From Paremcibacter congregatus (GTDB lineage: Bacteria; Pseudomonadota; Alphaproteobacteria; Sphingomonadales; Emcibacteraceae), in NCBI RefSeq assembly GCF_006385135.1, contig NZ_CP041025.1:3751501-3815500 (forward strand): a DNA stretch of 64,000 bases. Direction: 5' to 3'. Positions 31,004 to 46,016 of this stretch are shown here, piece after piece. The notes below the pieces were generated by a model. The model saw only the letters and a program-made list of their open reading frames with translations. It was not told the DNA's origin and ran no database searches. The translations under genes were made by a program, and so were the position numbers. Each line of letters opens with the position of its first letter. The stretch's first letter is position 1.

Positions 31004-34000
31004 TCAGGACAGCTGTTTTTCCGCTTTGCGGCCCAGTAGCTGGCTGACCTTTACCTTGACACCTTCCAGCAAAAGATAGTTCACCGGCACCAGTATAAGC
31101 GTAATAAACGTGGCGAACAGAATGCCAAAGCCAAGTGAAACCGCCATCGGTATCAGGAACTGGGCCTGGGTGGATTCTTCAAACAGCAACGGCATCAACC
31201 CGATAAAAGTCGTGACACTGGTCAGGAACACCGGCCGGAAACGCGCTATTCCCGCGGTCAGCACCGCCGATATCAGATCGCCAGCCTCCATACGTTTCTT
31301 GTTGATATAATCAACCAGAACCAGACTGTCATTGACCACCACCCCGACCAGAGCCAGCATCCCCATCAGACTCATGATCGTCAGTTCCATACCCATGATC
31401 CAGTGCCCGACGGTGGCGCCAATCAATCCAAAGGGAATGACGCTCATCACCACCAAAGGCTGGCTGTAGGATTTGAACGGAATCGCCAGCAGCACATAGA
31501 TCACGAAGAACACCAGCAACAGACCCCAGGCGAGAGAGTTATAGGATTCCCGCTGTTCTTTGGCTTCGCCTTCCAGAGAATAATTCACCCCGGGATATTG
31601 CGACATCAATTCATCAAGGTAGCCGGTCAGGTCGGCCTGTAACACGGTCATGTTGGTGTTGGCCTTTTCAATATCCGCCGTAACATTTAGCGTACGGTAG
31701 CGATCAATCCGACGAATGGCCGACGGACTTTTACCAGGAATAAGGTCCGCCACATGCGACAACGGTACGGCACCCCCGGCGGGCGTTTCAATCAGCAAAT
31801 CCCGCAACGAGGCCAGTGACTGCCGTTCTGCCAACGGCAAGCGCACCATCACGCGCACATCATCACGCCCCCTCTGGATACGTTGCGCTTCGGCCCCAAA
31901 GTAGGCCTGTCGCACCTGACGGGATACGTCATTCCGGGTCATCCCCAACGCCTTGCCCTGATCGTTCAGTTCGATCTGGATTTCGCTTTTACCGTCAGAC
32001 ATGCTGTCGGCTATGTCAAACACCGTCGGGTAGGTGGCGAGACGTTTTTTAATTTTTTCCGCCACCTGTTCCAGGGTTGTCAGGGAATTGGACGAAAGCT
32101 GTATGTCAATCGGGTCGGATGACCGGCCAAATTCAGACCGGAACGTCAGGCTTTCTGCACCCGGAATGGGGCCAATCAATTGCCGCCATTCCCGCGCCAG
32201 ATCATTGGAGGTGACAGTGCTGTCACGTTTTTCCGGTGGAATGATTTCAAACCGGACCCGGCCCTGGTTGGACACGCCACCGCGCCCCCCGGTCGTGGTC
32301 AGGATATTGGTAATCACACTGACATTGGTTTCCGGGTCACGATACTTATCGCGCAAGATTCGCGCTTTATCGGTTATGCGCATGATATGTTTGTTGGTGA
32401 CTTCAAACGGTGTTCCTGCGGGCAGGGTCAAACTGACCCGGACGGTTTCGCTGGGAATGCGCGGGAAAAAGATGAATTTGGTCCAGCCGCTCATGATCAG
32501 ACTGATCATGACAAGGAAAACACCAAAATAAATGCTTAAGGTCACCAGCTTGTGACGCAGGGAAAGTGCCAGAAGCGGCTTGTAATAGCGTATAATGGCA
32601 TGTTCGAATCCGTCAGCGAACCGTTCCTGAAAACGTTCCAGCCGACTGCTTTCGCCCTTCTCATGACGCAATTTGATATGTTTCAGATGCGACGGCAGCA
32701 CAAACTTGGATTCAATCAGGGAAAACAACAACACCGGAATCACCACAAAGGGGATTTGAGCGAAAAACGCCCCCCGTTGCCCCTCGATAAAAGCCAACGG
32801 CATAAAAGCAACGATTGTGGTCAGAATCCCGAAGGTCACCGGTACGGCCACTTCCTGGGTGCCTCTGATCGCCGCTTCTTCTCCGGACTCGGCGTTCTTC
32901 AGATGGGTATAGATATTTTCCCCGGTAACAATCGCGTCATCAACGACAATCCCCAATACCAGTATGAACCCGAACAGACTCAGAATATTCAGGGTCACCC
33001 CGAACAGAGGCATGATCAGAAAGGCGCCCATGAAGGATACCGGAATACCGATAAACACCCAGAAGGCGATCGACGGCCGCAGAAACAATGTTAATAACGC
33101 CAACACCAGTATCCCGCCCTGCAAAGCGTTGCTGGTCAGTGTGGCCAGGCGATTTTTAACAATCTGGGAATCATCATCCCAAAAACTGAGTTCATACCCC
33201 TGAGGCAGGGTCGCCTGCTGCCCGTCAAGATAATCGCGCACCTTCTGCGCCACATCAATGGCGCTCTGCTGGCCAACGCGATACACCTCGAGAAACGCCG
33301 CCTGCCGCCCGTTGAAACGGGTGCGCACCGGATACTCTTCAAATTCATCCCGGATCGTTGCCAGATCGCCAAGCCGCAAAATGGAGCCATCGGGATTGGT
33401 TTTCACCGCAATGGCGGCAAATTCATCCTTGCGATAGGCCTGCCCCTTGGACCGCAACAGAATCTCTCCTCCCGACGATTTCAGATTCCCCGATGAACTA
33501 TCAAGACTGAAATTGCGAATGGCTGCCGTGACATCGGCGATGCTCATATTATATTCGCGTAATTTGTCCTGAGACACTTCAATCGCAATTTCGTAATTAC
33601 GCACGCCTTCCAGCAACACCTGGGTGATGCCCGGCAACCGCAGCAGGTCATCACGCACCTCTTCGGCATATTCCCGGGTTTCTTTCTCCCCGTAATCACT
33701 GGCGACGGTCACTACGATGACCTCGCGTTTGCGTTCATTGAAAGAGACCACCGGTTTTTCCGCGTCCACAGGAAAGGTATTAATGGCGTCAACCCGGCTT
33801 TTGATATCAGCCAGCATGTCGCGGGGATCATAACCACTGTCAACTTCGATGGTGACAAAAGCGCGCCCCTCGGAAGACCGGCTGACAATCTTGCGAATCC
33901 CGGTCAGATCCTGCACCGCTTCTTCAATGCGGATCGAAATGCCCTTTTCCACGTCTTCCGGCGTCGCGCCGCGCAGGCTCATGCTGATGCTGATTTCATC

Positions 34001-34123
34001 CACCTCGACAGAGGGAAATATTTCCAGCGGGATAAAACGGAACAGGCTGAACAACCCCGCAATGACAATGCTGATCATCAATAAATTGGCGGCAACGCTA
34101 TTCCGGGCGAACCATGCAATCAT
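31004..34123 (-). CDS. RND efflux permease (HAE-1 type) of a tripartite pump
   Basis: A 1039-residue inner-membrane transporter opening with MIAWFARNSVAANLLMISI, a start shared by a subfamily distinct from AcrB, and carrying the TM4 proton-relay Asp pair in [16 protein letters not shown]. Two large periplasmic loops and 12 helices are evident. Its ATG overlaps the adaptor stop by four bases (ATGA), and 13 bp separate its stop from the GTG of the HutD-like gene. With the adaptor and outer-membrane factor upstream, it forms a self-contained tripartite efflux system. Relatives are found both as drug exporters and as transporters of unknown natural products. Confidence 0.94.
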   Translation of the reverse strand: MIAWFARNSVAANLLMISIVIAGLFSLFRFIPLEIFPSVEVDEISISMSLRGATPEDVEKGISIRIEEAVQDLTGIRKIVSRSSEGRAFVTIEVDSGYDPRDMLADIKSRVDAINTFPVDAEKPVVSFNERKREVIVVTVASDYGEKETREYAEEVRDDLLRLPGITQVLLEGVRNYEIAIEVSQDKLREYNMSIADVTAAIRNFSLDSSSGNLKSSGGEILLRSKGQAYRKDEFAAIAVKTNPDGSILRLGDLATIRDEFEEYPVRTRFNGRQAAFLEVYRVGQQSAIDVAQKVRDYLDGQQATLPQGYELSFWDDDSQIVKNRLATLTSNALQGGILVLALLTLFLRPSIAFWVFIGIPVSFMGAFLIMPLFGVTLNILSLFGFILVLGIVVDDAIVTGENIYTHLKNAESGEEAAIRGTQEVAVPVTFGILTTIVAFMPLAFIEGQRGAFFAQIPFVVIPVLLFSLIESKFVLPSHLKHIKLRHEKGESSRLERFQERFADGFEHAIIRYYKPLLALSLRHKLVTLSIYFGVFLVMISLIMSGWTKFIFFPRIPSETVRVSLTLPAGTPFEVTNKHIMRITDKARILRDKYRDPETNVSVITNILTTTGGRGGVSNQGRVRFEIIPPEKRDSTVTSNDLAREWRQLIGPIPGAESLTFRSEFGRSSDPIDIQLSSNSLTTLEQVAEKIKKRLATYPTVFDIADSMSDGKSEIQIELNDQGKALGMTRNDVSRQVRQAYFGAEAQRIQRGRDDVRVMVRLPLAERQSLASLRDLLIETPAGGAVPLSHVADLIPGKSPSAIRRIDRYRTLNVTADIEKANTNMTVLQADLTGYLDELMSQYPGVNYSLEGEAKEQRESYNSLAWGLLLVFFVIYVLLAIPFKSYSQPLVVMSVIPFGLIGATVGHWIMGMELTIMSLMGMLALVGVVVNDSLVLVDYINKKRMEAGDLISAVLTAGIARFRPVFLTSVTTFIGLMPLLFEESTQAQFLIPMAVSLGFGILFATFITLILVPVNYLLLEGVKVKVSQLLGRKAEKQLS

Positions 34124-35322
34124 TGCGATGCTCCCGCCGCATTGCGGTTGCCTGGTCTTTCCCCGTCACCCTCACTGGCGAGCACCACCGGTGTACCCGA
34201 ACTCACTCTTCCAAGTGGCGTCACCACCAGACGTTCCCCGGCCTTCAACCCGGCGGCGACCAGGCTGTCCTCATCATTTTGCCAGCGGGTTTCAATCTCC
34301 CGCCGTTTCAACAGCCCGTCTTCCACCACATAAACATAGCTGCCCTGATAAATGGCGCTGTTGGGGATGACCAGCGCATCTCTTAAATAAAGACCTTCGA
34401 TGGTGGCCGTGACATATTGACCAATTTTAAGGGGGGTTTTCTGACGGCTTTGACCGGCATAGGGATTGGTGATTTGCGCCACGGCATACAGTTGCCGCGA
34501 TTTATCGTCGATGGCGCCCTCGGTGCGCACCAGACGTCCGGTCCATATCTGTCCCGTCGTCAGATCGGAGTGAAATTCAACCTTGGCCCCCGCCGAGGCC
34601 GTATCGGCATCGCGATATTGTTCCGGCAGCTGCAATAACGCTAAATCCCGGTTTTTGATCGGCAAACGAATTTCCACATAATCTACCGCGTAAATTTCCG
34701 CCAACGGACTATTCCCCGATACCACCTGACCGACATCCACCAGTTTCTGTAAAATTCGTCCGGCGTACGGGGCGACAATTTTTGTCCTCTCCAGATTCAA
34801 GGCCGCCTTTTGCAATTGAGCCTCCGCCGACAGCACCCGCGCCCGCGCCGCTTCCAGTTGCGGCGTGCGCAACACCAACGCATTGGCTTCTTCACCGGCG
34901 ACGCCCAACCGTGTCCAGTCTTCCCGTGCCTGTTCCGCCCGGGCCTGTTCTTCCAGAAGCGCCTGACGCGCAGACATCAGGGTCGACTGGGCGATCTTGA
35001 CTTCCGCCTGGTAATCCCGGTCATCAAGCCGGACCAGAATATCGCCTTTTTCAAAAAAACCGCCATCACGAAACTTGTCACTAATAAAACGGATCTGACC
35101 AGAGACCTGCGCCACCAGCGTGCTTTGGGTTCGGGGACGAACCGTCCCGTAACTGTCAAGAAACACCTGATATTCAACCGGGGCAAGCAGTTGCGTTTCC
35201 ACCACCAGGCGCGGCGCCTTCGCGGCCTCGCCCCGGCGACTTTTCGGCGGATTGCTGAGGATGGTCCAGGCCAATAATATCGTTACGGCCAATATTCCAA
35301 GAGGGAGTATAAGTTTTTTCAT
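34120..35322 (-). CDS. RND pump periplasmic adaptor (membrane fusion protein)
   Basis: A 400-residue adaptor with an N-terminal membrane anchor (LILPLGILAVTILLAWTIL, residues 4-22) rather than a cleavable lipid signal. The lipoyl half-motifs flank an alpha-hairpin of about 65 residues (LVAQVSGQIRFISDKFRDGGFFEKGDIL near 68; TKIVAPYAGRILQKLVDVGQVV near 175, each in short blocks), followed by barrel and membrane-proximal domains. It should bridge the permease at 31004-34123 and the channel at 35319-36794. Both ends overlap neighbouring genes by four bases, so the three pump genes are translationally coupled. Confidence 0.93.
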   Translation of the reverse strand: MKKLILPLGILAVTILLAWTILSNPPKSRRGEAAKAPRLVVETQLLAPVEYQVFLDSYGTVRPRTQSTLVAQVSGQIRFISDKFRDGGFFEKGDILVRLDDRDYQAEVKIAQSTLMSARQALLEEQARAEQAREDWTRLGVAGEEANALVLRTPQLEAARARVLSAEAQLQKAALNLERTKIVAPYAGRILQKLVDVGQVVSGNSPLAEIYAVDYVEIRLPIKNRDLALLQLPEQYRDADTASAGAKVEFHSDLTTGQIWTGRLVRTEGAIDDKSRQLYAVAQITNPYAGQSRQKTPLKIGQYVTATIEGLYLRDALVIPNSAIYQGSYVYVVEDGLLKRREIETRWQNDEDSLVAAGLKAGERLVVTPLGRVSSGTPVVLASEGDGERPGNRNAAGASQ

Positions 35323-36794
35323 AAGTCCTTGTCCGTAACATCTTGTTCTGCTGCTATACTTTCGTCCGTCCGCGGGGCCGCATCAAAATCTCCCCCTAAG
35401 GCCAGATGAAGATCTACCCGGTTGGCGATCCTCTGCTTCCTCAATTGAATAACAGTTGTCTGTGCCTCGAAGGATCTGTTTTGCGCCTCCAGGACTGTGG
35501 TATAATTCACCAGACCCTTCTGATATTGTTCAAAAGACAAGGTCGCGGCGATGATGGCGTTCTCCTGCGCCTTGACCATTGCCTGGTATCTTTGCCGCAA
35601 ACTGTCATCGCGGGTCAGGGCATTTTCCACCGCCTCGAAGGCCCCGTAAAGATCATCGAGATAGGCCTGCTCGGCCTGTTTGACTTCGAGGGCCGCCGCC
35701 GCCTCGCCCGCCCGCAACCGTCCCGCATTGAACAGCGGCGTCGTCAGGCTGCCCAGCAGCGACCAGGCAAAAGGGGACCCTTTCAGCAAATCATCCAGTT
35801 CATTACCACGATCGCCGGCAGAGGCTGTCAGGCTCAGGCTCGGAAAACGCTGTTTATGAGCAAAGGCAAGCGCGGCGTCCTGAGCCAACAACCTGTTCCA
35901 GCTCGCCACCAGCCCGGCCTTCCGGGTGATCAGATCCGATGGCATTCCCAGAGGGATATCTTCCGTCAGGACCGGCCAGCCGGCCGACACCGCAAGACGA
36001 CCATCCGGATATTGCCCGAGCAGTCTTTCCAGCGTCCGAAGCGCCGCGACCTTGACAGATTCCTGATCCCGAACCCGGGAAATCTGACTGTTCAGTTCAT
36101 TACGCACCAAATATACATCCAGGGCGCTGTTCAGCCCCCGCCGATATCCGGATTCAATGATCGCCTGATTTTCCCGGGCGTTGTCAACCCGTTGCTGAAA
36201 CAGCTGCAATAATCTGTCGGCCTGCAGCACAGTCAGCCAGGCGTTGGCCACCCGGGCAGCCAGATCCTGACGCGCCTGAGCGTAACTGGCCTGTTCCGCC
36301 AACAACAACCGGTTGGCCCGCCGGGCATCGGCCGAAAGCTTGCCCCATATGTCCAGTTCGTAAGTTAAGTTCAAATCCACAGAGGCGGCGTCACTGGCCG
36401 CCAGCGCGGATACCGCCCGCGAACGGCTGCGCTTCAACGCCAAATCAAGGGATGGCCACAAGGCGCTGCCTGCCCTCACCAGCTGTTCTTTTCTGATTTC
36501 TACCGCCAACGCCTGTTGCTGCAAGGTTTGATTATTTTCAAGCGCCGTTTCCACCAGTTGCGTCAGGCCGGTACTGCCCAGTGTCGCCAGCCAGTGATCC
36601 GCAACCTGCGCCCGCGTCTCTTGCCGGTCCCCCCAGTTTTCCGGTGCAACGATGCGACGTTGACTGGCATCAGGGGTTGCCGGCCGACTACAGGACAACA
36701 ACAACAGGCACGCCGCTGCCGCCGCGACACCTTTGACCGTCGCCCGGAAAGGTCCTGTTCCTGGTCCCTTTCCTCTGTTCACTCTATACCGCAT
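35319..36794 (-). CDS. Outer-membrane efflux channel lipoprotein (NodT/OprM type)
   Basis: A 491-residue TolC-family factor with a lipoprotein signal (hydrophobic core then LLLLSCSRP, Cys being the acylation site) and two repeats of long coiled helices (ETALENNQTLQQQALAV in the first; GLVASWNRLLAQDAALAFAHKQRFPSLSLTAS in the second). Such proteins trimerise to make the outer-membrane exit duct of RND pumps. It is the first gene of the minus-strand run and overlaps the adaptor by four bases. The AT-rich gap 36795-37025 upstream probably contains its promoter, shared with the divergent CDGSH gene. Confidence 0.93.
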   Translation of the reverse strand: MRYRVNRGKGPGTGPFRATVKGVAAAAACLLLLSCSRPATPDASQRRIVAPENWGDRQETRAQVADHWLATLGSTGLTQLVETALENNQTLQQQALAVEIRKEQLVRAGSALWPSLDLALKRSRSRAVSALAASDAASVDLNLTYELDIWGKLSADARRANRLLLAEQASYAQARQDLAARVANAWLTVLQADRLLQLFQQRVDNARENQAIIESGYRRGLNSALDVYLVRNELNSQISRVRDQESVKVAALRTLERLLGQYPDGRLAVSAGWPVLTEDIPLGMPSDLITRKAGLVASWNRLLAQDAALAFAHKQRFPSLSLTASAGDRGNELDDLLKGSPFAWSLLGSLTTPLFNAGRLRAGEAAAALEVKQAEQAYLDDLYGAFEAVENALTRDDSLRQRYQAMVKAQENAIIAATLSFEQYQKGLVNYTTVLEAQNRSFEAQTTVIQLRKQRIANRVDLHLALGGDFDAAPRTDESIAAEQDVTDKDL

Positions 36795-38637: not shown

Positions 38638-39504
38638 CTAGGCCGCCTGACTGCGCAACGCCGCCAGCTGTTGTTCTATTTCCGGCGGCAAACAATCTAC
38701 AGCCGGTAATGTCTCCGGTAATGTTTCCTGCAGCAAGACAGAAGGACAGTTATTTTCATATCCGCCAAGATTGGGGCGATGTACTTTATAGCCGATCAAT
38801 GCCTGTAATTCCGGCGGGAAGGTCGCTGCAACTTTTGGCGGGTAAGCCAGAAACTGATTTTCATACTGTTTCAGCCACCCCAGAGAATAACTGAAAATAA
38901 TACCGGTACGATGTTCAAAATACCGATTGGCCCCGCCACAATGTGTTACTGACCCCAGAAAAATTAGAGCCGACCCCTTCGGCATTTCGGCAACGATGGC
39001 CTCCGCCTCATCCATATCACGGTTCAGGGACGCAAAATGACTTCTGGGCCAAATACGGGTCGCCCCGTTTTCCAACGTAAAATCATCAATCGCCCACATT
39101 ACATTAATCAGATATTCGCAACTTTTCGGGCAGGGCCACATTTCCTCATCCCGGTGTGGCGGTTGTTGCGGCGCCCCGGGATGAATACGCACCGCCTGCC
39201 CCAGGTTAAGCTGATACCAGTCACAATTAGGCCCGAGTATTTCATCAGCAATATAGGAAATATCAGGATGTAACGCCAAATCCTGAGAAGACGGCGCCTT
39301 GGTAAGCAAGGACCCGTAACGCGTGGTATCTTCACCATAAAAGTCGCCCTGACACCGGGGCGTTTTGGCAAACCACTGGTCCAGTTCCTGACTGACGTTG
39401 CTCAGCAGGTCCGGACTGATCATATTTTCAAGGATGACATATCCTTTTGACCGCAAGGTATCGACGGCTTTACGTCTCTTCAATTGTGTTATCCGTTGTT
39501 TCAT
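38638..39504 (-). CDS. Phytanoyl-CoA dioxygenase (PhyH)-family Fe(II)/2-oxoglutarate oxygenase
   Basis: A 288-residue oxygenase with the iron triad His117-x-Asp119 (PPHRDEEMW) and His188 (GSVTHCGGAN), and Arg199 (EHRTGIIFSYSLGW) placed to bind 2-oxoglutarate. It should hydroxylate an organic substrate while converting 2-oxoglutarate to succinate and CO2. Although an ectoine cluster is near, the ectoine-hydroxylase signature (WHSDFETWH type) is absent, so it is not EctD. It lies 139 bp downstream of luxI on the same strand. From general knowledge, PhyH-type genes next to luxI/luxR recur in sphingomonads, with no settled function. The substrate may be an acyl chain or a secondary metabolite; this is inference. 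Confidence 0.85.
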   Translation of the reverse strand: MKQRITQLKRRKAVDTLRSKGYVILENMISPDLLSNVSQELDQWFAKTPRCQGDFYGEDTTRYGSLLTKAPSSQDLALHPDISYIADEILGPNCDWYQLNLGQAVRIHPGAPQQPPHRDEEMWPCPKSCEYLINVMWAIDDFTLENGATRIWPRSHFASLNRDMDEAEAIVAEMPKGSALIFLGSVTHCGGANRYFEHRTGIIFSYSLGWLKQYENQFLAYPPKVAATFPPELQALIGYKVHRPNLGGYENNCPSVLLQETLPETLPAVDCLPPEIEQQLAALRSQAA

Positions 39505-39643
39505 TGTTCTGTCCTCTAAAATTAACTTTTTTGCCTTGTTTCAATCGCCAACCTCCTGGTCAGGACAAAGAGCATCCTGTCGGGCAAAAACGCGTGGTCC
39601 ATCCGGATCATCCACCGCCCTGCAAGACACGCCTTATCCTTCC

Positions 39644-40270
39644 CTAAGCGGCAAGCTGCTTCTGCGGGAGTATCTTAAGCGCCGGATTAAAGTTCCCGGC
39701 CGCACGCCTCAGGGCTTGCAGACCCGCCGGCGTTACCGCCACTTCAAAAGCGCAGATGTTGGTGGATTTATCTTTCTGTGGCAGCCCCAGCGGACTGATA
39801 TCCCAAGCCGCCCGCAAACAATGCTGTAACAAGGGCATACCGACAACCAGAGTTAACTTCTCCCACCCATAAATCAGGGCACATTCGAATATGCCACACA
39901 TAATTTCCTGGATGGCCTTGATGTTCTCCTGCCGGGATTTCAGGGAAGGATTACAGCAATAGCGGGAAATTTCCCAGACGCCTTCCCCGCGGGGAACGCC
40001 TTTCTCACACAAGGAACTAAACAGGTCGGACATAAGATGGGGTTTGATGGTCGGGATCAGCCGCAACGAACTGCGCAAATCCCCGGTGGTATCATCAACC
40101 AAGATCAGATACATCGCATCCTCAGTATCAAACTGGTCTTTTTCCAGGCCATTATCGGCCGTCAAATCCCATTTCAGGCGGTTGATAAAAATCTCGTTCC
40201 GATGCTGAAACATTTGTTTCAGCAGGTTGGCAAAGAGATGTCGGTTTTCTTGATTTATAAGATAGATCAT
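39644..40270 (-). CDS. luxI: Acyl-homoserine-lactone synthase (LuxI family)
   Basis: A 208-residue autoinducer synthase. The invariant residues are present at their standard places: Arg24, Phe28 and Trp34 (HRNEIFINRLKW), Asp45 and Asp48 (EKDQFD), an arginine at 70 (SSLRL), and Glu100 and Arg103 (WEISRY). It should join an acyl group from acyl-ACP or acyl-CoA to S-adenosylmethionine and form an N-acyl-homoserine lactone. The gene has a strong GGAGG site, is 138 bp downstream of luxR on the same strand and 139 bp upstream of the PhyH-type gene. The acyl chain cannot be deduced. No convincing lux box was found upstream. Confidence 0.93.
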   Translation of the reverse strand: MIYLINQENRHLFANLLKQMFQHRNEIFINRLKWDLTADNGLEKDQFDTEDAMYLILVDDTTGDLRSSLRLIPTIKPHLMSDLFSSLCEKGVPRGEGVWEISRYCCNPSLKSRQENIKAIQEIMCGIFECALIYGWEKLTLVVGMPLLQHCLRAAWDISPLGLPQKDKSTNICAFEVAVTPAGLQALRRAAGNFNPALKILPQKQLAA

Positions 40271-40408
40271 ATTTTCCTCCAGTTAAGGTATGGGGAAACT
40301 AGGCTAGATCAAATAAAAACCGCAGAAAACTGGCTTGTTAGGGGGTTGCATTCTTGAAAATAAAGAAACAGAAACAAAAGGCGCAACTTATCGGGGTAGG
40401 CATCCGGA

Positions 40409-41203
40409 TCAGGAAAGATTGATGAACCCTTTGCTGTTATTTCGGCTGATTTGCACATCAAAAAACTTGATCTCCCCCAGGAACAGAGCATGGACGATCG
40501 CCTGGGTGCGAGTGGATACCTTTAGCCGCTTCATGGTTTGCTGAACATGGAAATGCACTGTGCTTTCGCTCACTCCGATAATTCGGCTGATGGCCCAGTC
40601 ACTTTTCCCCTGGGCGACAAACTCCAGGCATTCGCGCTGCCGCGGGGTGAGAATCGGTTTTTTCTGAAGCGGCGTCGTGACCTTCAGCTTCATCGCCGCC
40701 TCATAAAAAAAACACGCCATCAAATGGATACAGTTCAAGGCCCGCGGATCGACACTGCCGGGCTCGAAAACCACCGAACATGATGCGGGGAATCCTTCGG
40801 CCGTATGAATGGGAACGGTGAAACCTTCCCCCAAACCGATCTCCGAGGCTTCATTCAAAATCTTTGTTTGTTCAAAATTGAGACTGGCGCGCCAGGATTC
40901 GTCAGACCAGGTAAAAGGCGTGATCCGCGCCTGAGACGTCATAAAGATCGGATCGATTTTCTGATATTGCTGTTCGCTAAAATGCAGCGCCCATTCAACA
41001 GGATAATTTGTCAGACAAATGGCATAATAGGGAATGTTCAGAGGGTCCACATTGGAGGCACAGACAAAATACCGGCACCCAAGCGCCTTAATGGTTTGCT
41101 CAAATAAATTTGTCAATCCATACAGGTCATCCGCACGTTTGGATTTTTCAATAAACCCCTGCGCCAATGCAAAATAGTCCATGTCATTATACTGCTGGGT
41201 CAT
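40409..41203 (-). CDS. luxR: LuxR-family quorum-sensing regulator
   Basis: A 264-residue protein with an N-terminal autoinducer-binding domain (residues ~25-175) and a C-terminal GerE-type helix-turn-helix (LTPRQRECLEFVAQGKSDWAISRIIGVSE in two blocks, residues ~195-255). Aligned to TraR numbering, the ligand residues are Trp71 (W57), Asp84 (D70), Pro85, Trp99 (W85), Gly127 (G113) and Tyr67 (Y53); the position of TraR Tyr61 is Phe75. It should bind the lactone made by the adjacent LuxI and regulate transcription as a dimer. It is divergent from ectA, with a 664-bp gap between them. Confidence 0.94.
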   Translation of the reverse strand: MTQQYNDMDYFALAQGFIEKSKRADDLYGLTNLFEQTIKALGCRYFVCASNVDPLNIPYYAICLTNYPVEWALHFSEQQYQKIDPIFMTSQARITPFTWSDESWRASLNFEQTKILNEASEIGLGEGFTVPIHTAEGFPASCSVVFEPGSVDPRALNCIHLMACFFYEAAMKLKVTTPLQKKPILTPRQRECLEFVAQGKSDWAISRIIGVSESTVHFHVQQTMKRLKVSTRTQAIVHALFLGEIKFFDVQISRNNSKGFINLS

Positions 41204-41867: not shown

Positions 41868-42383
41868 ATGACGAACATAAAAGAACAGGCGCTTGCCCTG
41901 CGCAGGCCTGTATCAGAAGATGGCGCCGCCGTATTTCAGTTAATCCGACAATGCCCGCCGCTTGACCCCAATTCGCTATATTGCAACCTGCTGCAATGTA
42001 GCCATTTCGCCGCGACCTCTGTTGCGGCCTTCGATACAGATCAACTAGTTGGCTTTATTTCCGGCTATATTATTCCAGACCGCCCGAACACCCTGTTCAT
42101 CTGGCAGGTGGCTGTAGGCGAGACGGCCCGGGGATCCGGTCTGGCGACCAAGATGCTGCACCATATCGTACAGCGCCCCACGTGCCAGGCGGTAACCCAT
42201 ATGGAAACGACCATCACACAGGACAATCAGGCGTCCTGGGCTCTGTTTGAGCGATTTGCCGACAAGATAGGAGCCGAGGTCACATCCTCGGTCATGTTTG
42301 ATCGTGACACGCATTTCGCCGGAGAACACGATTCAGAACATCGGGTCAAAATTGGCCCCTTCCACCTAAATTCCGAGGCTTAA
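41868..42383 (+). CDS. ectA: L-2,4-diaminobutyrate N-gamma-acetyltransferase
   Basis: A 171-residue GNAT acetyltransferase. Substrate-side wording typical of EctA is present (RRPVSEDGAAVFQLI, CPPLDPNSLYCNLLQCSHF in two blocks), and VAVGETARGSGLATKML is the acetyl-CoA pyrophosphate loop. It acetylates diaminobutyrate to N-gamma-acetyl-diaminobutyrate, the second step of ectoine synthesis. Order ectA-ectB-ectC-ask is as in many halotolerant proteobacteria. The ribosome-binding site is weak. Expression is expected to rise with salinity, but no regulator of the EctR type is seen. Confidence 0.93.
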   Translation: MTNIKEQALALRRPVSEDGAAVFQLIRQCPPLDPNSLYCNLLQCSHFAATSVAAFDTDQLVGFISGYIIPDRPNTLFIWQVAVGETARGSGLATKMLHHIVQRPTCQAVTHMETTITQDNQASWALFERFADKIGAEVTSSVMFDRDTHFAGEHDSEHRVKIGPFHLNSEA

Positions 42384-42427
42384 CGTAACGATCCGTTATC
42401 CCGACAGTATGACTTTTCATGAGATGA

Positions 42428-43750
<1,323 letters not shown>

Positions 43751-43757
43751 AGACATT

Positions 43758-43786
43758 GGCCTGTCGCCAACACTAAGCGGCAGGCC
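43758..43786 (+). other. Intergenic hairpin between ectB and ectC
   Basis: Nine-bp stem with one G-U pair (GGCCTGTCG 43758-43766 with CGGCAGGCC 43778-43786), 11-base loop, beginning 7 bases after the ectB stop. There is no immediate U-tract, so it is likelier an RNA-stability or partial-termination element than a full terminator. Confidence 0.55.
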
Positions 43787-43837
43787 CCGTCACAAGTATT
43801 ATATTAAAAGAATAACGAGTTCACAGGATTTATATAC

Positions 43838-44227
43838 ATGATCGTACGCACCCTACAGGACGCCGAAAAAACCGACCGCAAAGTTGTATCCCCCGACGGC
43901 AACTGGGACAGCACCCGGCTGTTGCTGAAAGAAGATAACATGGGGTTCTCCTTCCATATCACCACCATCTATGCTGGCGCGGATTTTGGCATGCATTATC
44001 AGAACCATCTGGAATCGGTTTACTGCATGTCCGGTACAGGGGAAATTGAAACAGTTGCCGACGGTAAAAAATATCCCATTGCACCGGGCACAGCCTATTT
44101 CCTCGACAAGCACGACAAACATATTTTGCGGGCCTTTACGGAAATGAAAATGGCCTGTGTTTTTAACCCGCCCGTCACAGGCAAGGAAGTCCATAACGCC
44201 GAAGGCGCCTATGAACTAGAAGGCTAA
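43838..44227 (+). CDS. ectC: L-ectoine synthase
   Basis: A 129-residue cupin enzyme that closes N-gamma-acetyl-diaminobutyrate to ectoine with loss of water. The expected iron ligands are in place: Glu59 (NHLESVYC), Tyr87 (GTAYFLD) and His95 ([10 protein letters not shown]), offset by two from the numbering of characterised EctC proteins. The product is the compatible solute that protects against osmotic stress. It is preceded by an 87-bp gap with a hairpin and followed by a 346-bp gap before ask, so the ect run is looser than usual. No ectoine hydroxylase gene is present nearby. Confidence 0.95.
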
Positions 44228-44573
44228 GCCAACCCGGCCGCCTTTCAGGGAGACGAGATGAAGACACAACTCTATTATTCTCCGGATCCATACAGAAATC
44301 TGATCCCGACATGCGGGCGGCACATGCCCCGCCTGTCGGGGCATCATTCATGGCGTTTTCGGCATACTGACACCACATCAGCATATGCCCAAGCCGCCCT
44401 GTTTCACCCGATGCGCGCCACACCGCATCCCTCGCCGGCTTCAGAACGCCGGGTACCGTCGCAGGGCGGGAATGCCCGGCACACCGACAGTATCGCCGGA
44501 AACACAATAAAGCCATCGTGCACCATATGTAACACCCGCAGCGCGAAAAAATTTGACCATAAGGACTACTACA
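44228..44573. other. ectC-ask intergenic region (346 bp)
   Basis: An unusually long interval inside the ect cluster. It contains a pair of overlapping hairpins near its start and a small open frame with a plausible ribosome-binding site that runs into ask. No promoter consensus is obvious. It may be a leader that sets ask expression apart from ectABC, or the remnant of a lost gene. Confidence 0.55.
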
Positions 44574-44587
44574 ATGGGACGTCATAA
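44258..44587 (+). CDS. Possible small leader ORF overlapping ask
   Basis: A 109-codon frame with GGGAGACGAG directly before its ATG and a stop that falls 14 bases inside ask. The protein is rich in Pro, His, Arg and Ser, has no recognised domain, and its composition looks more like non-coding sequence than the neighbouring genes. It could be a leader peptide coupling translation to ask, a gene remnant, or chance. Confidence 0.22.
   Translation: MKTQLYYSPDPYRNLIPTCGRHMPRLSGHHSWRFRHTDTTSAYAQAALFHPMRATPHPSPASERRVPSQGGNARHTDSIAGNTIKPSCTICNTRSAKKFDHKDYYNGTS
44307..44343 (+). promoter_or_regulatory. Two mutually exclusive RNA hairpins upstream of ask
   Basis: Hairpin A: CGACA (44307-44311) with TGTCG (44334-44338), continued after one mismatch by GCGGG (44313-44317) with CCCGC (44328-44332). 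Hairpin B: TGCCCCG (44325-44331) with CGGGGCA (44337-44343), 5-base loop. They share bases 44325-44338 and cannot coexist, an arrangement seen in attenuators. Neither is followed by a U-run. Confidence 0.4.
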
Positions 44588-46016
44588 TGTAGAAAAAATC
44601 GGCGGAACCTCGATGAATGATTATCAGGCGGTTCGCGATAATATTATTTTCAAACCAGCTACCGAAGGCGACCTGTATCAGCGGGTCTTCGTGGTATCCG
44701 CCTATGGCGGGCTCACTGATCTTCTGCTGGAAAACAAGAAAACCGGACAACCAGGGGTCTTTGGCCTGTTCGCCAGCAGCATCAACGATACAGGCTGGCA
44801 GGAAGCGCTGCTCAAATTACGCCAGCGAGTCTATCAGATCAACACCGAGCTGTTCGGAGAAGGACCGCTTCTTGATAAGGCCAATGCCTTTATCACCGCC
44901 CGGCTCGACAGCAGCGCCCAGTGCCTGACCGATCTGCAACGCCTGTGTCGCCACGGCCATTTCGCCCTGGACATGCATCTGGACACCGTGCGGGAAATGC
45001 TCGCCAGCATTGGTGAAGCCCACAGCGCCTGGAACATGGCTCATCTGCTGGAACGTGACGGCGTGAATGCCTGCTTCGTCGACCTGACCGGATGGCAGAC
45101 CGAAGAACATCATTCCCTGGACGAACGGGTTACAGAAGCCTTCAAGACCATAGATCTGGCCAAACAGCTGCCGGTCGTGACCGGGTATGCCCATAGTGAA
45201 GACGGCCTGATGTCCACCTTTAACCGTGGCTATAGCGAGATGACCTTCAGCCGCATCGCCGTGCTGACAGAAGCCAGCGAAGCCGTGATCCACAAGGAAT
45301 TCCACCTCAGCACCGCCGACCCGCGCATGGTCGGGGAAGATAACGCCGTGCCCATCGGCCGGACGAATTATGACGTGGCTGACCAGTTGGCCAATCTTGG
45401 TATGGAAGCGATCCACCCCAAGGCGGCCAAAGGCCTGCGCCAGAACGATATTCCCTTGCGGGTGAAAAATACATTCGAGCCCGAGCATACCGGCACCCTG
45501 ATCACCGGCGATTATGTCAGCCGCACCCCGCGGGTGGAAATTATCGCCGGCTGTAAAAGCATCTATGCCCTGGAGATTTTCGATCAGGATATGGCGGGCA
45601 TGCTGGACCGGTATGACAGCCATTTTCTCAAACTGATCAATCAGTATAAGGCCCATATTGTCGCGAAAGACATTAACGCCAATACGATCACCCATTATTT
45701 GTCGACAAACCTGAAAGTGATCAAACGCATTCGCCGCGCCCTCGGGGAAGCCTTCCCCGAAGCGGAAATGAACCAACGCAAGGTCGCCATTGTATCGACC
45801 ATCGGCAGCGACATGCAGATTTCCGGCATTCTCGCCAAGGCCGTCGGGGTTCTTGCCGACGAAAAGATCAATGTTCTGGCCCTGCATCAATCCATGCGGC
45901 AGGTCGATATTCAGTTTGTTGTTGACGAAAATGATTACCAGCCGGCGATCAAGGCGCTGCACAGCAGCCTGATTGAAATCGACGATCATGGCCGGGCCCT
46001 GTGTCTCGCCTCGTAA
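44574..46016 (+). CDS. ask: Ectoine-cluster aspartate kinase
   Basis: A 480-residue aspartokinase from ATG 44574 (MGRHNVEKIGGTSM), chosen because AAGGA precedes it and KIGGTS is the kinase N-terminal motif; an in-frame ATG seven codons earlier is rejected. The catalytic domain (residues ~1-320, with EAIHPKAAKGLRQNDIPLRVKN in two blocks) is followed by ACT domains (AIVSTIGSDMQISGILAKAV). It phosphorylates aspartate to supply aspartate semialdehyde for ectoine. The ENKKTGQPGVF insertion near residue 50 is a mark of the ectoine-specific Ask group, reported to resist feedback inhibition. It is separated from ectC by 346 bp and from the symporter by 40 bp. Confidence 0.93.
   Translation: MGRHNVEKIGGTSMNDYQAVRDNIIFKPATEGDLYQRVFVVSAYGGLTDLLLENKKTGQPGVFGLFASSINDTGWQEALLKLRQRVYQINTELFGEGPLLDKANAFITARLDSSAQCLTDLQRLCRHGHFALDMHLDTVREMLASIGEAHSAWNMAHLLERDGVNACFVDLTGWQTEEHHSLDERVTEAFKTIDLAKQLPVVTGYAHSEDGLMSTFNRGYSEMTFSRIAVLTEASEAVIHKEFHLSTADPRMVGEDNAVPIGRTNYDVADQLANLGMEAIHPKAAKGLRQNDIPLRVKNTFEPEHTGTLITGDYVSRTPRVEIIAGCKSIYALEIFDQDMAGMLDRYDSHFLKLINQYKAHIVAKDINANTITHYLSTNLKVIKRIRRALGEAFPEAEMNQRKVAIVSTIGSDMQISGILAKAVGVLADEKINVLALHQSMRQVDIQFVVDENDYQPAIKALHSSLIEIDDHGRALCLAS

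Follow-up and report, generated by a model that had tools for sequence, protein, structure and literature searches.

The gene order luxR-luxI-phyH, in which genes for a receptor and a synthase of acyl-homoserine lactones (AHLs) are followed by a gene for a PhyH protein, is known in sphingomonads, and the passages dealing with it leave the function of PhyH open (PMC3704786, PMC4288048, PMC5012321). This bears out what an earlier note on the DNA studied here had stated, namely that PhyH genes recur by luxI and luxR in sphingomonads with an unsettled role. In the same passages the version with virB genes after the module is termed topology T and a metagenomic clone is credited to Hao et al. 2010. 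Here the same three genes are analysed in a 64,000-nucleotide stretch of Paremcibacter congregatus (contig NZ_CP041025.1, positions 3,751,501 to 3,815,500), the whole of which is called the window below. The novR-novI-phyH or topology T modules of Sphingomonadaceae (Gan et al. 2013, 2015, 2016) have the gene order of the window and a PhyH of the same clade. However, the window comes from a non-sphingomonad and lacks gntR, lasso peptide or virB genes after phyH, and its phyH starts 139 bp past luxI, whereas theirs overlaps or nearly touches it. The gene arrangement is already known and the window adds a member outside the sphingomonads; new are the breadth of the LuxI link and its near-obligate character, the grouping of linked PhyHs in a single clade, the exchangeable outputs and the frequency of lasso genes after phyH. 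Literature searches on phyH or 2-oxoglutarate with AHL terms gave no functional study of a luxI-linked PhyH by title.

Two other described systems resemble parts of what is reported below. A hybrid lassopeptide-homoserine lactone cluster is on record for Sphingomonas sp. So64.6b (PMC9716278), so that at least one earlier record exists of an AHL synthase paired with a lasso cluster. As in the lasso-linked relatives described here, an AHL synthase region stands there beside a lasso cluster, in this case by an antiSMASH call; no PhyH appears in the passages concerned, which were found with other terms, and the pairing goes undiscussed in them. The window differs from that cluster in having no lasso genes beside phyH. 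The relevant parts of PMC8776678 and PMC6963729 do not describe the pairing of luxI with lasso genes, further titles with both terms give no pointer to it, and no paper adding PhyH to it or showing its frequency was found among the part of the lasso matches viewed. CanE, a lasso peptide Asp hydroxylase, is a 2-oxoglutarate oxygenase in a lasso setting, as is PhyH in the lasso-linked relatives; the likeness is taken from its description, and a term search of that review gave no mention of LuxI (PMC9266682).

The module in the window

The luxR-luxI-phyH module is real, with all three genes in one direction on the minus strand. The gene luxR (40409..41203) encodes an AHL receptor and regulator of 264 amino acids with both domains (Pfam Autoind_bind 95.5 bits, GerE 62.9 bits) and adjoins luxI (39644..40270), which encodes an AHL synthase of 208 amino acids (Autoind_synth 100.7 bits) and lies directly upstream of phyH (38638..39504), the gene of an Fe(II)/2-oxoglutarate oxygenase of 288 amino acids in the LuxI-linked clade (PhyH, PF05721, 93.5 bits). 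Each is an open reading frame (ORF), and all Pfam scores are far over the cut-offs. The earlier note had described the synthase and receptor as complete, which the ORFs, the Pfam domains and the catalytic residues kept in LuxI (R24, F28, W34, D45, D48, R70 and E100) confirmed. The nearest solved chains of LuxI are 6wns_A, an AHL synthase, and 6wn0_A, a 4-coumaroyl-homoserine lactone (HSL) synthase. The iron and 2-oxoglutarate residues of PhyH are likewise intact, as the note had stated: the HxD iron motif (H117 and D119; 39148..39156, minus strand), the second iron histidine H188 (38941..38943, minus strand) and R199, 11 residues past H188 (38908..38910, minus strand), which is presumably the 2-oxoglutarate anchor, are invariant among 51 aligned relatives. 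The module is beyond chance, since relatives keep the same gene order.

Linkage of PhyH to LuxI

The neighbourhood survey suggested in the earlier note showed that LuxI stays with PhyH while the product genes change or are absent. When the genome of P. congregatus and 39 relatives were searched, a PhyH match was present in 16 of the 40 genomes, the own genome included. Eight of the relatives' loci (L004-L011; E value 9.3e-69 or better) have luxI and luxR directly upstream, and the other eight (L012-L019; E value 3.1e-57 or weaker) have neither within the 1.5 kb examined. GTDB was then scanned with one genome per species by a profile of PhyH proteins and two peptide patterns from LuxI-linked PhyHs, a procedure that favours this clade; among the best 80 of 183 loci, which were kept, 79 have LuxI on the same strand upstream of phyH, at a distance of 40-237 bp in 78 and of 1717 bp in L085, and in the remaining locus (L129) the contig is cut 230 bp upstream of phyH. 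LuxR was found in 75 of the 80 loci; L052, L078 and L129 are cut by contig ends, and L110 and L118 gave no LuxR match in the available sequence. The taxa include Emcibacteraceae, Hyphomonadaceae, sphingomonads and the gammaproteobacterial Steroidobacter. The same four genes follow phyH in L110 and L118, in the latter a glycosyltransferase gene, one without a Pfam match, and genes of a TauE protein and an Alph_Pro_TM membrane protein. Doubled modules, luxR-luxI-phyH and then another luxR and luxI, occur in L021 and L106.

A sample of 278 genomes from the family of Novosphingobium rosa, with at most eight PhyH candidates scored per genome, contained 83 PhyH copies at 304-374 bits in 61 genomes. 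LuxI lies upstream of 79 of these 83 copies (gaps 69-1462 bp), whereas none of 21 lower-scoring paralogs (243-287 bits, some of them near contig ends) has LuxI within 10 kb on the same contig (Fisher 2.5e-18, with rows that are not independent and a 300-bit line set after the gap between 304 and 287 bits had been seen). Counted from the synthase, 79 of the 112 LuxI copies of at least 40 bits adjoin a clade PhyH (one further LuxI match, at 23.9 bits, was left out), and in all 61 genomes bearing clade PhyH the LuxI copies are at least as many as the PhyH copies. Near-identical LuxI proteins occur across four genomes of this sample (L175, L176, L178 and L179), which suggests a recent transfer as judged from their sequences; in three of the four, a clade PhyH that has no adjoining luxI is present as well.

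Among plasmid records, many of which are near copies, LuxI is upstream of phyH in 37 of the 38 with PhyH at 44% identity or more, within 1.5 kb in 36, and the remaining record has an IS21 element upstream; none of the 20 records whose PhyH has 38% identity or less occurs in the list of LuxI records (60 of 82 listed). Conjugative plasmids of Sphingobium SYK-6 and S. herbicidovorans have virB genes after the module, and on pMC4 and PP1Y Lpl it is followed by genes for GntR, a sigma factor, FecR and a TonB receptor, with no lasso B or C genes in the stretch read. It also stands near IS1071 on conjugative plasmids of Hydrogenophaga, a betaproteobacterium, and of an uncultured bacterium (L216 and L223), so the module travels beyond the alphaproteobacteria. 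A tblastn search of viral contigs gave no PhyH relatives.

In a PhyH tree of 88 rows, made by a quick method from all unlinked and exception rows and 49 of the 86 linked rows, the linked PhyHs formed one clade of 53 rows (Shimodaira-Hasegawa-like approximate likelihood ratio 90). This clade comprises 48 linked rows, four exceptions without an adjoining luxI (L185-L188) and one cut row, and the window PhyH falls inside it; L029, which is on a long branch, is the only linked row outside. Residues specific to the clade include N100, M122, V135, Y221, R243-P244-N245 and D270, from a comparison of 90 rows (linked, exception or cut) with 34 unlinked ones, L029 being left out. In the LuxI tree the linked LuxIs are clustered with nine label changes, so the synthase side is looser than PhyH. 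A synthase type specific to PhyH was considered and rejected, since the linked LuxIs do not form one clade. In 4002 of 4095 locus pairs, conservation is higher for PhyH than for the LuxI that goes with it (median identity 0.48 against 0.33), and the divergence of the two is correlated (rho 0.82); the pairs come from 91 PhyH/LuxI loci and are not independent, and L054, L056 and L086, which are likely the same contigs as L005, L004 and L008, enter these counts and the palindrome counts given below as duplicates. The stronger conservation of PhyH would be expected if PhyH reads a constant part of the signal.

Enzyme type of PhyH

With an HxD...H triad and a 2-oxoglutarate arginine in the family fold, PhyH is a PhyH-type Fe(II)/2-oxoglutarate oxygenase. 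Its AlphaFold model, from an alignment of 51 sequences, has a mean predicted local distance difference test score of 92.2, and the best entries of the fold search were SptF, AndA, AsqJ, FtmOx1, PrhA, TlxJ, DhiD (8zyb), EasH and OkaE (Z about 29-31; root-mean-square deviation 2.1-2.4 over 243-254 aligned residues; 22-28% identity). These oxygenases have the fold and the iron and 2-oxoglutarate residues in common with PhyH, and the PhyH clade differs from them in being tied to LuxI. A profile search of the PDB returned TlxJ, AndA, DhiD, SwnH1, PrhA, SptF, OkaE, AsqJ and FtmOx1 at about 1e-36 to 1e-22, whereas human phytanoyl-CoA dioxygenase (2a1x) was matched at 3.5e-5 over 91 of 274 positions; the human enzyme is also not among the best 50 fold matches listed, which carries no weight alone. 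The predicted fold is therefore that of natural-product oxygenases rather than of acyl-CoA hydroxylases. Most of these fold relatives, as we take it, oxidise free terpenoid, alkaloid or peptide-like natural products, which would fit a small diffusible substrate such as an AHL. DhiD is the nearest solved chain by single-sequence search; a literature search gave no paper naming both DhiD and a dioxygenase, and hence no substrate to compare.

Two enzyme types were considered in particular. Phytanoyl-CoA hydroxylase proper is weakened, as 2a1x lies far below TlxJ, AndA and DhiD in the profile search and the fold search agrees. EctD, which was considered since ectABC adjoins the module, is rejected on sequence, with EctD chains at E values of only 0.037-0.046 and no NCBIfam match at 0.001. 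EctD is itself termed a PhyH in a passage of PMC12654047.

Genes downstream of phyH

Of the 70 loci having at least 4 kb of sequence downstream of phyH, 42 have lasso B and C genes there, 47 a gntR gene and 37 an S9 isopeptidase gene; the hidden Markov models for the lasso genes were built from the same loci, and Pfam confirms representatives. Precursor-like ORFs were found in 42 of the 43 loci with a strong B match by a search pattern that itself demands T-x before a core with G...D/E. The predicted cores differ strongly, and by eye nothing is common to them beyond the residues demanded by the pattern; a common modifiable residue was looked for and none was obvious by eye. In the sample of 278 genomes, lasso B lies no more than 4 kb downstream of phyH in at least 19 of the 83 copies and within 25 kb in at least 32, where random placement would give 1-2, and 26 of the 61 genomes with clade PhyH have no lasso B among the matches listed. 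There is no lasso gene after phyH in the window, in L050 or in L106, and the genomes of the last two, both metagenome-assembled genomes (MAGs), gave no match to PF13471. In two plasmid records phyH overlaps the following gntR by 4 bp, with no B or C gene in those stretches. In isopeptidase lasso clusters, according to the section of a review that treats them, a gene for a GntR regulator stands before that of the precursor (PMC9266682). Since the neighbours after phyH differ while LuxI stays, PhyH follows LuxI and the outputs are exchangeable.

The own genome, a single contig of 4.19 Mb, has a lasso cluster about 0.5 Mb from the quorum module (L142; C1:3231000-3247000), with GntR-like, GntR, B, C, B, C and two S9 isopeptidase genes in tandem. 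Neither phyH nor luxI was present in the 16 kb read there.

Probable operon layout

Palindromes of at least 8 of 10 pairs precede luxI in 55 of 127 regions, compared with 23 of 127 when shuffled, and precede phyH in 24 of 97 regions, compared with 21 of 97 (single-base shuffles; duplicates and unlinked LuxIs included). Of seven luxI-bearing plasmid regions, four have a 4-bp overlap between luxI and phyH, one has an 11-bp overlap and two have a gap of about 10 bp. The tight spacing, together with palindromes enriched before luxI but not before phyH, suggests that relatives transcribe phyH along with luxI. In the window no terminator-like site is listed inside the luxI-phyH gap (39505..39643, minus strand), and phyH may be co-transcribed with luxI in this organism.

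Possible role of PhyH

Of the two targets that the earlier note had offered for PhyH, the neighbourhood survey favours the AHL signal over a quorum-controlled product, because the neighbouring product genes change or are absent and LuxI stays. The reading preferred here is tentative and close to an even call. As far as the sequences indicate, the module would be a self-contained and portable quorum-sensing cassette, in which the target of the oxygenase is the AHL or a precursor of it rather than one fixed product; the near-obligate LuxI link of PhyH suggests that it probably acts on the signal itself. LuxI would make an acyl, possibly an aryl or branched acyl, homoserine lactone, and LuxR with its ligand would switch on the luxI-phyH unit along with any other genes under its control, downstream or at other sites. 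PhyH, as an oxygenase of natural-product type, would oxidise the signal or its immediate precursor, and the mature or private signal could be an AHL oxidised at a position other than the usual 3-hydroxy one. Both the substrate and the site of oxidation are what we infer. A three-gene circuit of Mesorhizobium japonicum for 2E,4E-C12:2-HSL reportedly has linked genes that accompany an unusual AHL. The common 3-hydroxy group need not come from PhyH, for NovI proteins alone, expressed in Agrobacterium, made C8-OH and C10-OH AHLs in the experiments described in PMC5012321, and a LuxI-type protein that yields 3-hydroxy-AHLs by itself makes PhyH unneeded for this step.

Several observations weigh against action on the signal. 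By the passages on their AHLs, Croceicoccus naphthovorans PQ-2 and Escherichia coli with its luxI alone had similar AHL patterns on thin-layer chromatography, with one unknown AHL in the comparison (PMC7432010), which gives no sign of a gross signal change in PQ-2, where the presence of a neighbouring phyH is unchecked. The AHLs reported for UT26 and SYK-6, whose plasmids carry luxI-phyH, are ordinary C8-C14 and 3-hydroxy forms in the part of PMC11024222 concerned. However, in the relevant passages of PMC5012321 and PMC7432010 the AHLs were matched to standards, so an AHL oxidised elsewhere in the native strain could be missed. The searches of the literature found no biochemical test of any member of the LuxI-linked clade. 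In the 278 genomes, 33 of the 112 LuxI copies have no intact clade PhyH beside them (one of them, L193, adjoins an apparently broken phyH), so many LuxI systems work without PhyH. The four clade PhyHs without an adjoining luxI also belong here; their genomes each hold an unpaired LuxI elsewhere and, in favour of the signal reading, luxR is directly upstream of phyH in three (L186-L188), while L185 has neither luxR nor luxI. In an even sample of the class, comprising 385 genomes with at most six PhyH candidates scored in each, PhyH was found at 1e-20 or better in 51 and LuxI in 59, and adjacency was seen by eye only in the own genome, G043 and G129; this rarity implies that the wider PhyH family is not LuxI-linked and that most LuxIs are without this PhyH. 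In the window itself the luxI-phyH gap is 139 bp, and a palindrome scan of the luxR-luxI intergenic region (40271..40408, minus strand), in which a lux-box-like palindrome is frequent among relatives, showed no clear lux box before luxI, the best candidate having 6 of 10 pairs.

The alternatives rank, in order of belief after action on the signal, as signal turnover, product tailoring and donor supply. PhyH could oxidise the AHL in order to inactivate it, as an off switch that is built into the circuit and produced along with the signal. This is unlikely but would be fitted by the same LuxI linkage data, by the operon layout and by the ordinary AHLs found in cultures, and the phyH genes kept by luxR without luxI (L186-L188) would suit a scavenger of foreign or remote signal. 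However, LuxI/LuxR circuits use positive feedback, which an enzyme induced along with the synthase would blunt. PhyH could otherwise hydroxylate a quorum-controlled product, above all the neighbouring lasso peptide, in the manner reported for CanE on canucin (PMC9266682), and we consider this decidedly improbable. The lasso B and C genes after phyH in 42 of 70 loci, the excess of lasso B within 25 kb (at least 32 of 83 copies) and the 4-bp phyH-gntR overlaps speak for it. Against it, 26 of 61 genomes with clade PhyH have no lasso B among the matches listed and the MAGs of L050 and L106 have none, the same module precedes virB genes on conjugative plasmids, the predicted cores of the 42 loci differ strongly, and the lasso cluster of the own genome has no phyH in the stretch read.

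The supply of an acyl donor, in which PhyH would 2-hydroxylate an acyl-CoA or acyl-acyl carrier protein for LuxI, as the human PHYH does with phytanoyl-CoA, seems the least probable of the explanations. The Pfam family name PhyH points this way, as does the 4-coumaroyl-HSL synthase among the nearest PDB chains of LuxI, an enzyme which presumably uses an acyl-CoA donor. However, the PDB profile favours TlxJ, AndA and others over human phytanoyl-CoA dioxygenase by many orders (1e-36 to 1e-22 against 3.5e-5), and the fold search returns the same natural-product group.

If PhyH acts on the signal, surveys for the standard C4-C14, 3-oxo and 3-hydroxy AHLs could overlook the true signal in many sphingomonads and their relatives, and the specificity of the circuit would depend on the oxygenase in addition to LuxI and LuxR. 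The lasso adjacency suggests the cognate AHL as a testable trigger of lasso clusters, and the versions on conjugative plasmids tie the same chemistry to plasmid transfer. It is possible, although rather doubtful, that PhyH is an unexplained third standard part of many LuxI/LuxR circuits, an oxygenase giving an oxidised AHL outside the current lists of standards, in a cassette that is exchanged among the chromosomes and conjugative plasmids of alpha-, beta- and gammaproteobacteria and serves varied outputs, mostly lasso peptides, which would hence be density-controlled by a private signal.

Surroundings of the module and second quorum-sensing locus

The nearest relative of the window PhyH is in a MAG named Emcibacteraceae (68% identity). 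Downstream of phyH in the window are a DUF1861 gene and a CDGSH gene (Pfam), with no lasso B or C genes directly after it, and beyond the CDGSH gene, at 31004-36794, lie efflux-like genes named from their translations only. On the other side, ectABC and an aspartate kinase gene (41868..46016, plus strand; Pfam and NCBIfam) are divergent from luxR, the distance from luxR to ectA being 664 bp, and are context outside the module. The own genome also has a second LuxR and LuxI about 2 kb apart (L144:3854-7185; C1:1408000-1421000), with no phyH in the 13 kb read there. In the LuxI tree this second LuxI groups with a PhyH-linked LuxI of a congener (L008).

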